64,000 nt of DNA, from positions 88,391-152,390 of the forward strand of contig VXYL01000057.1 of assembly GCA_009846005.1 (NCBI GenBank). The letters run 5' to 3'. The translations under genes were made by a program, and so were the position numbers. This DNA comes from Gammaproteobacteria bacterium (GTDB lineage Bacteria; Pseudomonadota; Gammaproteobacteria; Pseudomonadales; Azotimanducaceae). The notes beneath the pieces were generated by a model. That model was not told the origin of the DNA, did no database searches, and saw only the letters and a program-made list of their open reading frames with translations. Positions 23,283 to 27,679 of this stretch are shown piece after piece. Within the stretch, counting starts at the first letter, position 1, and the number at the start of each line of letters is the position of its first letter.

Positions 23283-24251
23283 TTACGGGCGTGCCTTCGG
23301 ACCGACTCCGTCCGCCCGAACAGCCTTGTTGGTCAGCGTCGCGATCTCCGCATCCACGTTCTCGATGTCCTCCTGGAACTTGAGGATCACGTTCAGGGTG
23401 TCGCGGACTAGATCGGGGTCGAGGCTCTCGGTGTGCAGAAGTAGCAGCGTACGCGCCCAGTCGATGGTCTCGGAGATCGCGGGCACCTTCTTGAGATCGA
23501 GGTCGCGCAGATCCTGGATGAAGGTGACCAGTTGGCGGCGCAGTTCGGGGGGGATGTCAGGCACCCGGGCATGGATGATGCGTTGCTCGAGATCGGCGTC
23601 GGGGAACGGGATGTAGAGATGGAGGCAGCGGCGCTTCAGGGCGTCGGAGATCTCCCGAGTGTTGTTACTGGTCAGGAAGACGATGGGCGGCTCCCGGTGC
23701 GCCTTGACCGTACCGATCTCGGGAATGGACACCTGGAAGTCGGAGAGGATCTCGAGCAGCAGCGACTCGAACTCGTGGTCTGACTTGTCCACCTCGTCGA
23801 GCAGGAGAACGCAGCCGTCCTCCTCGCGCAGGGCCTTGAGCAGCGGCCGGGGTTCCAGGAACTCCTCCGAGAAGAAGATGTCGCCGAACTCGTGCAGGCG
23901 GGTTACCGACTCCGCGAACCCCTGGGCCCCTTGAAGCACTTCGTCCAGTGTTTCCTTCAGAACCTGGGTGTAGAGGAGTTGCTTGCCGTACTTCCACTCG
24001 TAGATGGCCTTCGCCTCGTCGAGGCCTTCGTAGCACTGCAGGCGGATGAGCGGCAGCGCGAACATCTCGGCGGTGGTCTTGGCGAGTTCCGTCTTGCCAA
24101 CTCCCGGCGGGCCTTCGATGAGCACCGGCTTGCGGAGGTGGAATGCCAAGTAGACGGCGGTTGCGATCTGGTTGCTGCAGATATAGCGGTGCGCCTCGAA
24201 GCTGTCCTTCAAGGAATCCACCGACTCCGCCAACTGCTCGATATCCGCCAC
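23283..24251 (-). CDS. MoxR-family AAA+ ATPase
   Basis: 322 aa. Walker A is GPPGVGKTE at about 47-55 and Walker B is VLLLDEVDKSD, with sensor VFLTSNNTREISDALKRRCLH. It acts with VWA proteins in the assembly of enzyme complexes. It is the first gene of the leftward run MoxR, VWA, OppA, OppB, OppC, M48, OppD. GTG start at 24251. 122 bases separate it from the divergent CoA-transferase gene and should hold both promoters. Confidence 0.93.
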   Translation of the reverse strand: MADIEQLAESVDSLKDSFEAHRYICSNQIATAVYLAFHLRKPVLIEGPPGVGKTELAKTTAEMFALPLIRLQCYEGLDEAKAIYEWKYGKQLLYTQVLKETLDEVLQGAQGFAESVTRLHEFGDIFFSEEFLEPRPLLKALREEDGCVLLLDEVDKSDHEFESLLLEILSDFQVSIPEIGTVKAHREPPIVFLTSNNTREISDALKRRCLHLYIPFPDADLEQRIIHARVPDIPPELRRQLVTFIQDLRDLDLKKVPAISETIDWARTLLLLHTESLDPDLVRDTLNVILKFQEDIENVDAEIATLTNKAVRADGVGPKARP

Positions 24252-24373
24252 GAGTCCTCCGAACGCCGCCGCGACTTCGAACGGCGCAAAAGCAGGCCAT
24301 TATAGCGTCCACTTCTCTGCCAACGTTTCTGCAGAAACCCGCGGTTTGCCGCGCGGGGCCGGTGCGGGCGAAA

Positions 24374-25516
24374 ATGGTCCGGATGAAGTCGACAGAAGTA
24401 AGACCCCTCGACGGCGTCCTAGTCGTCAGCCTCGAACAGGCCGTTGCCGCACCGTTGGCTACCTGCCGGCTGGCCGATGCCGGGGCGCGGGTCATCAAGC
24501 TGGAACGCACCAACGGCGACTTCGCCCGCGCCTACGATACGGCGGCCAACGGGCAGTCCGCGTATTTCGCATGGCTGAACCGGGGCAAGGAGTCCCTCAC
24601 CGTCGACATCAAGAACGACGATGACCGGGAGCTCATCCTGCGCATCCTCGCCAAGGCCGACGTGTTCGTCCAGAACCTGGCCGTGGGTGCCGCTGCCCGG
24701 TCCGGCTTGGGGTCCGACGACCTGCGCGAACGGTTTCCGCATCTCATCACCTGCGGCATCTCCGGGTACGGCGAGACCGGTCCGTATGCCGACATGAAGG
24801 CCTATGACCTGCTCGTGCAGGCCGAATCCGGCCTTGTTTCGGTGAATGGGGCTCCGGGGCCATACGGCCGGGTCGGCATTTCGGTTTGCGATACGTCCAC
24901 CGGGCTCGCAGCGGCGCTCGCCATCAACGAAGCCCTGGTCCAGCGGCAGCGAACCGGCATCGGTTCCGAGATCAAGATCTCGATGTTCGATGTCATGGCG
25001 GATCTGATGGCGGTTCCGTTGCTGCATCACGACTACCTCGGCGCCGGGCCGGAGCGCATCGGACTGGCGCATCCGTCCATCACGCCTTACGGCGGATTCG
25101 TCACGGGCGATGGCGTGACCCTGGTGATCTCCGTGCAGAACGACCGCGAATGGAAGTCGTTCGCCACCAACGTCATGGGTCGCCCGGAACTGGTCGAAGA
25201 TCCCTGCTACGCCACCAATCCAGCACGGCTGGAACGCCGCGAGGTGGTGGACGGGATGGTGCAGGCGTTCTTCGGCCAGCACACGCGTTCGGAGATGGAA
25301 GACAAGCTCAGGACCGCGCGAATCGCCTACGGGGCGGTGAACGACGTAACCGGCTTGTCGACACACCCCCATCTGCGCCGGCTCACGGTCGACTCCGAGA
25401 CCGGCGACGTGGAAGTTCCCGCCCATCCGAACGCCGCTGCCGCTCCGCCGAAGTCGCCCCGGCTGCCGTGCCTCGGCGAGCACGACGAACAGATACGGCA
25501 GGAGTTCAGCGACTAA
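24374..25516 (+). CDS. CaiB/BaiF (family III) CoA-transferase
   Basis: 380 aa, the single-domain length of the family. Typical features are RPLDGVLVVSLEQAVAAPLATCRLADAGARVIKLE, YFAWLNRGKESLTVDI and GISGYGETGPYADMKAYDLLVQAESG. It transfers CoA between organic acids, cytoplasmic, as an interlinked dimer; the acid is unknown. The start is ATG at 24374 or, three codons on, at 24383; the frame remains open upstream but family similarity begins here. It probably heads a small operon with the FMN split-barrel gene 9 bases downstream and the selenoprotein gene. Confidence 0.9.
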   Translation: MVRMKSTEVRPLDGVLVVSLEQAVAAPLATCRLADAGARVIKLERTNGDFARAYDTAANGQSAYFAWLNRGKESLTVDIKNDDDRELILRILAKADVFVQNLAVGAAARSGLGSDDLRERFPHLITCGISGYGETGPYADMKAYDLLVQAESGLVSVNGAPGPYGRVGISVCDTSTGLAAALAINEALVQRQRTGIGSEIKISMFDVMADLMAVPLLHHDYLGAGPERIGLAHPSITPYGGFVTGDGVTLVISVQNDREWKSFATNVMGRPELVEDPCYATNPARLERREVVDGMVQAFFGQHTRSEMEDKLRTARIAYGAVNDVTGLSTHPHLRRLTVDSETGDVEVPAHPNAAAAPPKSPRLPCLGEHDEQIRQEFSD

Positions 25517-25525
25517 GGAGTCCCG

Positions 25526-25999
25526 ATGCCATCACGCCGCAAGCTGATCGAACTCACCGCCGACGAGGTCCGCGACTACCTGGATGCGGAAAAGACGCTG
25601 ATCATCGTCAGCAACGGCCACAACGGCTATCCCCATCCCATGCCGATGTGGTTCGCGCACGAACCCGACGGAACAATCCGCTGCACGACCTTCGGCAAGA
25701 GCCAGAAGGTCCTGAACTGGCGCCGGAACTCCAAGGCGACGCTGCTGGTCGAGAGCGGGGTCGAGTACGCCGAGTTGAAAGGCGTGGTGATCTACGCGAC
25801 GTGCGAGATCATCGAGGATCTCGACGCGGTCGCGGACACCCTGGTGGCAATCAATTCCCGGGGACGGGATCTTGATGACGGCGCGAGGGCCAAGCTTCGC
25901 GAGGCCGTCTCGGGGACGGCGTCGAAGCGCGTCGTGTTAGAGTTCACCCCGAAACGTTACGTCACGTGGGACCACGCCAAGCTCGGCGGTCGATACTGA
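25526..25999 (+). CDS. Pyridoxamine 5'-phosphate oxidase-like FMN-binding split-barrel protein
   Basis: 157 aa. LIELTADEVRDYLDAEKTLIIVSNGHNGYPHPMPMWF and TTFGKSQKVLNWRRN fit the split-barrel flavin-binding fold (PPOX/F420-type). Such proteins are small cytoplasmic flavin reductases or sequestering proteins; the particular reaction cannot be assigned. The ATG follows AAGGAG by five bases, a strong ribosome site. Upstream is the CoA-transferase; 29 bases downstream is the selenoprotein, so all three may be co-transcribed. Confidence 0.82.
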   Translation: MPSRRKLIELTADEVRDYLDAEKTLIIVSNGHNGYPHPMPMWFAHEPDGTIRCTTFGKSQKVLNWRRNSKATLLVESGVEYAELKGVVIYATCEIIEDLDAVADTLVAINSRGRDLDDGARAKLREAVSGTASKRVVLEFTPKRYVTWDHAKLGGRY

Positions 26000-26028
26000 C
26001 AAGGACCAAATATCCGGAGGCCAACAAA

Positions 26029-26250
26029 ATGGACATCTCCATCACCTACTGCACTTCCTGAGGCTACAAACCCAAAGCGGTCAGTCTGGCTGCAAAGATC
26101 AAGGACACGTTCGGCGAGGATCCGTTCATCATCGAAGGCGCGGGCGGCATCTTCGACGTCAATGTCGATGGGAAGCTCGTCTACTCGAAGCACGAGACCG
26201 GGGAATTCCCCGACGAGGACGCGCTCATCAAGGAAATGCAGGCGCTGTAA
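26029..26250 (+). CDS. SelW-like (SelT/SelW/SelH, Rdx family) selenoprotein with in-frame UGA
   Basis: 73 codons read through TGA at 26059-26061 as selenocysteine, position 11. The N-terminus MDISITYCTS-U-GYKPKA has the CxxU redox motif of the Rdx thioredoxin-like family, where vertebrate SelW has YCGAUGYKSK. The remainder (AAKIKDTFGED, GGIFDVNVDGKLVYSKHETG, FPDEDALIKEMQAL) follows the family fold to a TAA at 26248. GGAGG lies eight bases before the ATG. The function is probably cytoplasmic thiol redox. If TGA were a stop, only a 10-residue peptide would be made while the downstream frame stays conserved, which argues for recoding. A hairpin downstream of the TGA fits a SECIS. Bacterial homologues with Cys in place of Sec are known. 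Confidence 0.88.
26077..26093 (+). promoter_or_regulatory. Candidate bacterial SECIS hairpin
   Basis: GCGGTCA pairs with TGGCTGC: seven consecutive pairs including two G-U wobbles, closing a three-base loop GTC. The loop begins 22 bases after the UGA and starts with G. This agrees with the published description of bacterial SECIS elements: a short hairpin inside the coding sequence with a G in the first two loop positions. SelB would bind it to insert selenocysteine at UGA 26059-26061. Confidence 0.7.
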
Positions 26251-26268
26251 CGGAACGTTCGCGTCAAC

Positions 26269-26293
26269 GGGACGCCACAAGGGCGTCCCCTAC
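26269..26293 (-). repeat. Palindromic repeat, C type
   Basis: GGGACGCC, loop ACAAG, GGCGTCCC, then CTAC; 18 bases after the selenoprotein stop and before the convergent ahcY end. Confidence 0.9.
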
Positions 26294-26317
26294 GGACGAT
26301 CGCTCAAGCGGGCGCGT

Positions 26318-27679
26318 TCAATACTTGTACGTGTCGGGCTTGAACGGCCCTTCGGCGGAGACGTTGATGTAGTCGGCCTGCGTGATCGTTAACCGGGTCA
26401 CGACCCCGCCGAAACCTTCCACCATCAGTTCGGCGACCTCCTCGTCGAGTTTCTTGGGCAGCACTTCGACGCCCACCGGCGCCCGCTGGGCGGGATCCTG
26501 ATCGGCCCAGCGCTGCTCGTAGAGGTGCATCTGGGCGAGCACCTGGTTGGCGAACGAACCGTCCATCACCCTGGACGGGTGTCCCATGGCGTTGCCGAGG
26601 TTCACGAGCCTGCCTTCGGACAGCAGGATCAGGTAGTCGCCGGGGTCGTCGCTTCGGAACACCTGGTGGACCTGGTCCTTGACGACTTCCCAGCGCCAAT
26701 GTTCGCGCATGTAGGCGGTGTCGATCTCGTTGTCGAAGTGACCGATGTTGCAGACGATGGCGCCCGATTTGATGGCTCGCAGCATGGCGGCATCGCAGAC
26801 GTTGGTGTTGCCGGTGCAGGTCACCAGCAGGTCGGTCTGGCCCATGAGCCGTTCGTCGATGTCCTCGATCCGGCCCGTGTTGTTGCCACCGACATACGGC
26901 GACACCACCTCGTAGCCGTCCATGCAGGCCTGCATGGCGCAGATGGGATCAATCTCGACGATGCGCACGATCATGCCTTCCTGGCGCAGGCTCGCCGACG
27001 AACCCTTCCCGACGTCGCCGTAGCCGATGACCATCGCGCGTTTGCCGGCCATCAGCATGTCGGTGGCGCGCTTGATGGCATCGTTCAGGCTGTGCCGGCA
27101 GCCGTAGCGGTTGTCGTTCTTGGACTTGGTAATGGAGTCGTTGACGTTGACAGCCGGCACCTTCAGTTCGCCGACGGTGAGCATCTCGTAGAGCCTATGC
27201 ACGCCGGTGGTGGTCTCTTCGCTGACACCGTGAATTCCGGTGAGCATCGCCGGGTACTTCTCGTGGATCATCTGGGTCAGGTCGCCCCCGTCGTCGAGCA
27301 GCAGGTTGGCGTCCCAGGGCTTGCCGTCCTTGAGTATCGTCTGCTCGATGCACCAGTCGTACTCCTCCTCCGTCTCGCCTTTCCACGCATAGACGGCGAT
27401 GCCGTCCACCGCCATGGCGGCCGCGGCATGGTCCTGGGTCGAGAAGATGTTGCACGACGACCAGCGCACCTCGGCACCGAGTTCGACGAGGGTGCGGATC
27501 AGCACCGCGGTCTGGATGGTCATGTGGATGCAGCCGATGATCTTGGCACCCGCGAGCGGTCTGTCGGCCGCGTAGCGGCGCCGCAAGGCCATGAGCGCGG
27601 GCATTTCGGCCTCGGCGAGTGCGATTTCCCGGTGACCGAAATCGGCGAGGCCGATGTCGGCGACCTTGTAGTCGGTCAT
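26318..27679 (-). CDS. ahcY: Adenosylhomocysteinase
   Basis: 453 aa. Hydrolyses S-adenosylhomocysteine to adenosine and homocysteine, keeping methylation reactions going; cytoplasmic tetramer with bound NAD. The NAD site is [28 protein letters not shown] is the substrate-site signature, and the protein ends in the conserved [10 protein letters not shown] chose the ATG at 27679 ([15 protein letters not shown]); the in-frame extension to 27739 is not family-like. I see no SAH riboswitch in the upstream bases. The gene stands alone here. Confidence 0.97.

Follow-up and report, generated by a model that had tools for sequence, protein, structure and literature searches.

The locus at positions 26029–26250 (+ strand) of the window, the 64,000-nucleotide stretch of DNA from contig VXYL01000057.1 that was analysed, raises the question of whether its in-frame TGA ends a very short reading frame or specifies selenocysteine (Sec) in a selW-like gene. 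The ATG at 26029, the TGA at 26059–26061 and the TAA at 26248–26250 (all +) share one frame, and a GGAGG ribosome-binding site, read from the sequence, lies at 26016–26020, 8 nt 5′ of the ATG. Translation with the TGA as Sec (U) yields 73 residues beginning MDISITYCTSUGYKPKA, in which the residue encoded by the TGA closes a Cys8-x-x-Sec11 motif. The frame 3′ of the TGA remains open for 62 codons with a GC3 of 0.82, compared with a mean of 0.77 for the 39 long ORFs of the window, which were picked mechanically. The original prediction had placed YCTS before and GYKPKA after the TGA, and had claimed an uninterrupted SelW-like protein of 73 residues, coding quality up to the TAA and a well-placed GGAGG; all of these are borne out, and the observation of a TGA-containing selW-like gene is confirmed as real. 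The gene was also said to be hidden and liable to be missed by standard gene calling. The ORF list indeed contains an antisense ORF of 107 aa (25957–26280) over selW and no + strand ORF of at least 60 aa in the selW frame at 26029–26250. The gene is thus hidden in the sense that it is absent from the ORF list, but it is not of an unknown kind, as SelW-like CxxU proteins are a catalogued family.

Family membership of the product is clear from profile searches. The 73-residue protein matches the Pfam family Rdx (PF10262) with 68 bits (cut-off 22.6, E 8e-19) and the NCBIfam family TIGR02174 with 58.9 bits (cut-off 34.2), while its score of 77.7 bits against the equivalog NF041051 (SelTWH_Campy) is under the cut-off of 88, and the protein is not filed there. 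The CxxU motif directly follows the first strand, and alignment columns 8 and 11 are invariant in 28 of 28 aligned sequences. An AlphaFold2 model, in which Cys replaces Sec, has a pLDDT of 88.4, a pTM of 0.71 and the secondary structure order E-H-E-E-E-H-H, with a strand at residues 3–8 and a helix at 14–28. At an E-value threshold of 0.001, Foldseek with this predicted model retrieved 23 chains from eight PDB entries (2fa8, 3dex, 2oka, 2obk, 2ojl, 2p0g, human MIEN1 2ljk, and mouse SelW 2npb), and a sequence profile search found the same eight entries. The selW product is predicted to adopt the thioredoxin-like fold of solved SelW-related proteins.

Regarding the conservation of the TGA, a first survey covered 58 genomes, namely the host and members of the same genus, family, and order. 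SelW matches were present in 33 of these genomes (35 matches in all). Exactly one TGA occurs inside 28 of the matches (L001–L028), all from the host family, and in each of them, own locus included, the codon at the Sec position is TGA. The other seven are weaker and have no inner stop. Two of the seven, L029 and L030, were read; these distant homologues from order-level relatives carry CxxC, with TGT or TGC at the Sec column. Across the host family, 113 of 206 genomes contain a SelW match (116 matches), and 110 of the 113 possess a copy that contains a single in-frame TGA, counted as a TGA within the match rather than codon position by codon position. Among the three exceptions, the match of G170, located at a contig end, begins at residue 17, that of G162 is a partial match of 31 residues, and the third is the copy of G093 described below, which has TAG and TAA besides the TGA. 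In three genomes (G018:C129, G032:C274 and G062:C20), a second, weaker, stop-free SelW match stands beside the TGA gene and is possibly a Cys-type paralogue. A scan of named genomes yielded 304 relatives; among the best 80 (L087–L166), several of which are the same contigs as L002–L028, the Sec codon is TGA in 80 of 80, and the remaining 224 may include Cys forms. The record titles of the best 80 name Gammaproteobacteria and Pseudomonadales metagenome-assembled genomes (MAGs), Planctomycetota, Acidobacteria, Deltaproteobacteria, Chloroflexi, and Verrucomicrobiales. The isolate names of several relatives may point to sponges. Phage records yielded no selW relative, and 26 plasmid records carry distant relatives, all under 60% identity. 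As 93 of the 206 family genomes and one Sec-equipped congener have no match, selW is dispensable. That congener, G015, possesses tRNA-Sec, selA, selB, and selD; the gene can go and the Sec system stay.

The part of the gene behind the TGA evolves as a coding sequence. For the part 3′ of the TGA, the median NG86 dN/dS ratio is 0.147 and the maximum 0.368 (153 pairs of L001–L018); without the hairpin codons described below, the median is 0.129 and the maximum 0.421 (152 pairs). Purifying selection after the TGA therefore indicates that selW is kept as a protein. These data bear on the alternative that the TGA is a true stop and the downstream part the remnant of a Cys-type SelW gene, that is, a nonsense pseudogene. 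TGA does close 16 of the 39 long ORFs of the window as well as the gene just upstream, and one family copy (G093:C12:25649-25846), with TGA, TAG, and TAA in frame, has apparently decayed. However, a pseudogene would not be expected to show purifying selection and a covarying hairpin 3′ of the TGA, and the TGA stands at the same codon in all 28 family loci and in all of the best 80 of 304 loci, which come from several phyla. The original prediction had named a real stop with nothing conserved downstream in close relatives as the observation that would speak against it; the relatives instead keep both the TGA and the downstream part. A pseudogene is accordingly very improbable.

Behind the TGA, a bacterial SECIS element is predicted at 26077–26093 (+), consisting of a 7-bp stem (GCGGUCA/UGGCUGC) and the loop GUC at 26084–26086. 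Counted from the T of the TGA, the hairpin occupies positions 19 to 35, and the loop follows the UGA with a spacing of 22 nt. The section of PMC13188914 on the bSECIS model gives a loop of 3–9 nt, a stem of 4–16 bp, a G in the first two loop positions, a UGA-to-loop spacing of 16–37 nt and an energy of −7.5 or lower. With 3 nt, 7 bp, G then U, 22 nt, and a fold energy of −8.9 kcal/mol (centroid −8.6), the selW hairpin lies within each range, as judged against the published constraints. The folding energy of the single sequence is itself unremarkable (z −0.36; 69 of 200 shuffles are at least as stable). In the lowest-energy folds of L001–L028, the stem is present in 28 of 28, with seven pairs in 26 and six in L019 and L028; several distant loci among the best 80 (e.g., L142, L145, L158, and L162) have a different lowest-energy fold.

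The pairing of the stem is far better preserved than codon choice would predict. Among 72 distinct sequences (of 108), 504 pairs are possible, of which 486 are standard, compared with a mean of 352 (sd 7, maximum 375) over 2000 sets in which codons were redrawn among synonyms by usage. All seven pairs are standard in 54 of the 72 sequences and six in the other 18. Pair 21-33, which joins third codon positions on both sides, is standard in all 72 and occurs as five pair types (G-U 37, C-G 24, G-C 6, U-A 4, and A-U 1), and at pair 24-30, U-A replaces C-G in six distinct sequences. Non-standard combinations are found at pair 22-32 in ten sequences and at pair 19-35 in eight; in one distinct sequence, pair 22-32 is U-A, with an amino-acid change. 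Of the 72 loops, 43 read GUU and 29 GUC. In 30 sequences chosen for diversity from the same 108, the covariation score is 0.329 compared with 0.164 after shuffling, a value reached by none of 500 shuffles, and sliding the partner by one to three columns lowers the score to 0.009 to 0.105. Two of five covariation measures, both-sides-changed pairs (2 vs 1.5) and further pair types (8 vs 6.7), do not rise above shuffles. As the chosen 30 contain no sequence with a non-standard pair 22-32, the covariation result flatters the helix, whereas the count of 486 of 504 takes in all 72. A SECIS model (R1) searched over the genome ranks the selW site first (E 3e-12, next E 1.7), a rank that arises by construction because R1 was built with the selW site included. 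The hairpin behind the TGA would be a SECIS element by its fit to the published bacterial model and by its compensatory changes, and the natural covariation that it records is unusually clear for such an element.

The original prediction had proposed a search for selA, selB, selC, and selD, and the absence of selB, selC, or selD from a complete genome would have spoken against it; all four are present in the host genome (4.96 Mb, 106 contigs, completeness 97%). The tRNA-Sec gene lies at C92:43-132 (69.5 bits, gathering score 47) and has the anticodon TCA according to ARAGORN. The genes selA (528 bits) and selB (377 bits) adjoin each other at C6:112835-116025, and selD (246 bits) is located on C72 within a 755-codon frame; all three matches are over their cut-offs. 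Among 37 family genomes, 34 contain tRNA-Sec, 34 selB, 34 selD, and 35 selA, again over cut-offs. Within this set, tRNA-Sec was not found in G001, G005, and G033, selB in G005, G031, and G033, selD in G019, G031, and G035, and selA in G031 and G033; the completeness of the assemblies with a missing part is 81 to 95%. The TGA gene is present in G001, G005, G019, G031, and G035 though one or more machinery parts are unmatched there. Each of the congeners G012 and G013 was assembled as one contig, and this contig contains the TGA gene together with all four sel genes, so that mixed bins are no longer a concern. As a side observation, selD occurs in frames of more than 700 codons in 31 of the 37 genomes (in the host at G000:C72:17291-18193), a length that would be consistent with the Ndh-SelD fusion reported in PMC2398784. 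In G017, G027, and G034, the best SelD match lies in a frame of 350–367 codons with one in-frame TGA.

The presence of tRNA-Sec, SelA, SelB, and SelD also bears on the idea that UGA is reassigned or leaky in this organism and is decoded as a standard amino acid such as tryptophan or glycine. An open frame past the UGA would, taken alone, fit such a reading too. However, UGA terminates the upstream gene and the 16 long window ORFs mentioned above, both distant homologues that were read have Cys at the Sec column, and some selW orthologues (L003, L010, L012, L013, and others) themselves end with TGA. As these orthologues have TGA both as the Sec codon and as the terminal codon, TGA seems to carry both meanings in one gene family. 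Reassignment is hence extremely improbable. The weakest alternative, a sequencing or assembly error that made TGA from TGC or TGT, can draw on the fragmentation of the genome into 106 contigs, but its probability is negligible because independent assemblies, including the single-contig G012 and G013 and the 80 named contigs, have the TGA in common. The conserved TGA, selection, the hairpin, the machinery, and the independent assemblies thus led to the rejection of a pseudogene, a reassigned UGA, and a sequencing error.

Almost certainly, the locus encodes a functional selenoprotein that belongs to the SelW-like branch of Rdx proteins, a conclusion for which calculation supplied the frame, the family, the conserved UGA, the purifying selection, the paired and covarying hairpin, the machinery, and the predicted fold. 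Very probably, a small redox protein is made in this bacterium by decoding a stop codon as selenocysteine, and the selenoprotein interpretation put forward in the original prediction is supported. In the proposed mechanism, the ribosome would start at the ATG at 26029 and meet the UGA at 26059–26061, where the hairpin at 26077–26093 may recruit SelB carrying Sec-tRNA-Sec. Sec would then be inserted instead of termination, and translation would continue to the TAA at 26248–26250. The product would be a thioredoxin-like domain of 73 residues with Cys8-x-x-Sec11 in the loop that follows the first strand. This motif would most likely serve as a thiol/selenol redox centre that forms a reversible selenenylsulfide, and glutathione or thioredoxin may be the partner that reduces it.

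Two genes precede selW on the + strand, a CoA-transferase family III gene (24143–25516; PF02515, 330 bits), whose true start is probably further in (Pfam match from residue 89 on), and an FMN split-barrel gene of the PNPOx_N/PPOX class (25526–25999; PF01243, 45 bits, cut-off 28.1). The latter ends 29 nt upstream of selW with TGA as a normal stop, and its best NCBIfam match, Rv1155_F420, is under the cut-off. The original prediction had correctly named both neighbours and proposed that they and selW form a small redox operon. To examine this proposal, six neighbouring window proteins were sought in the best 80 of the 304 loci, many of which are cut by contig ends. The CoA-transferase and the PPOX gene are directly upstream in only 12 of the 80 (L087–L095, L098, L115, and L117, in the last two about 165 bp away), so that the operon is weakly supported. 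The CoA-transferase occurs without the PPOX gene in L096, L097, and L099, and the PPOX gene lies about 3.5 kb off in L107, L110, L114, and L116. None of the 25 largest clusters of neighbouring ORFs in the 80 loci keeps a fixed place across phyla; two, TonB-type receptors (L130) and a TPR-like protein (L166), span phyla by single linkage at varying positions. The upstream context says little about the function of selW, and none was drawn from it. At gathering scores, Rfam gave nothing in the 64-kb window. A scan of 24200–26500 for such signals returned nothing resembling a promoter and a single terminator-like site (25596–25613, minus strand), fewer than in shuffles. A dispersed short element near AAGGGCGTCCCCTACGG has 21 matches with up to three mismatches in the window, compared with 0.34 expected; it occurs at 26279–26295 just behind selW and at 20 more places (e.g., 1425, 10366, 47061, and 58714), and looks like a REP-type intergenic repeat.

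Other genes of the host genome contain in-frame TGA codons as well. One such codon each is found in four of 26 AhpC-TSA matches (PF00578), located at G000:C41:78672-79052, C44:43220-43612, C34:81663-82043, and C16:78693-79055 (L204–L207), and reading through the TGA gives, in the same order, the motifs TGGU, WUPFC, WUPFC, and WUPYC. All NCBIfam matches of the four genes are under the cut-offs, and the two molybdopterin matches in the host genome are without an inner stop. The four genes probably encode further thioredoxin-fold selenoproteins, and selW is therefore probably not the sole selenoprotein gene of the genome. In both WUPFC genes, a GUU loop closed by a stem of 7 bp lies 21 nt behind the UGA, and the stem letters are unlike those of selW; the TGGU gene folds into a stem of 7 bp topped by a 5-nt loop, and the hairpin plan of selW was not seen in the WUPYC gene. 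Defined as a 7-bp stem with a GU-pyrimidine triloop 21–22 nt after the UGA, the same plan is thus shared, with different stem letters, by selW and two of the four other TGA-bearing thioredoxin-fold genes. In selW, compensatory changes, most of them synonymous, preserve this plan across phyla (72 distinct sequences). It may be proposed tentatively, at somewhat less than even odds, that unrelated selenoprotein genes of this lineage rely on a common hairpin architecture, of which SelB would read the shape and the GU rather than the stem sequence.

SelW-like selenoproteins are already known from marine bacteria. The family is reported as the most abundant selenoprotein family in the Sargasso Sea study (48 genes; PMC1088965) and tops the table of the Global Ocean Sampling study with 427 sequences (PMC2398784). 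In PMC1088965, the function of the family is described as unclear, the CxxU motif as suggestive of a redox role, and the protein as interacting with glutathione. A passage of PMC1794560 describes few or no Cys forms of the family in Sec-using organisms, and an entry in PMC13188914 (2026) lists SELENOW-like (PF10262) as a predicted prokaryotic selenoprotein. As the family is catalogued and abundant in marine bacteria, selW here is a further member of a known family, and the general knowledge of selenoproteins is unchanged by the finding. A literature search for sponge or MAG selenoproteins, at the level of its listings, showed no paper on the SelW of this lineage, which is a weak negative. The finding adds a clean, testable selenoprotein gene to uncultured Pseudomonadales-type MAGs, in which ordinary gene calling cuts such genes short.

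In comparison with known systems, selW shares with the marine SelW-like selenoproteins the CxxU motif, the Rdx/thioredoxin-like fold, and a bacterial SECIS after the UGA, whereas the host lineage and the detail of the hairpin differ, in a comparison made at the level of these features. Among the solved structures, the Rdx proteins 2fa8, 3dex, 2oka, 2ojl, 2obk, and 2p0g and mouse SelW (2npb) are found by profile at E 4e-7 or better. The predicted selW model superposes on the bacterial Rdx structures, which are 23–36% identical to the selW product, with TM scores of 0.83–0.92 (up to 0.91 for 2fa8) and on mouse SelW with a TM score of 0.65. The SECIS of Escherichia coli fdhF is a coding-region hairpin just 3′ of the UGA, with a G-U in a small loop and a bulged U. 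The selW hairpin resembles it in lying in the coding region right behind the UGA and in presenting G-U in a small loop, but differs in that its 7-bp stem is plain, bears a GUU/GUC loop and lacks the bulged U of fdhF.
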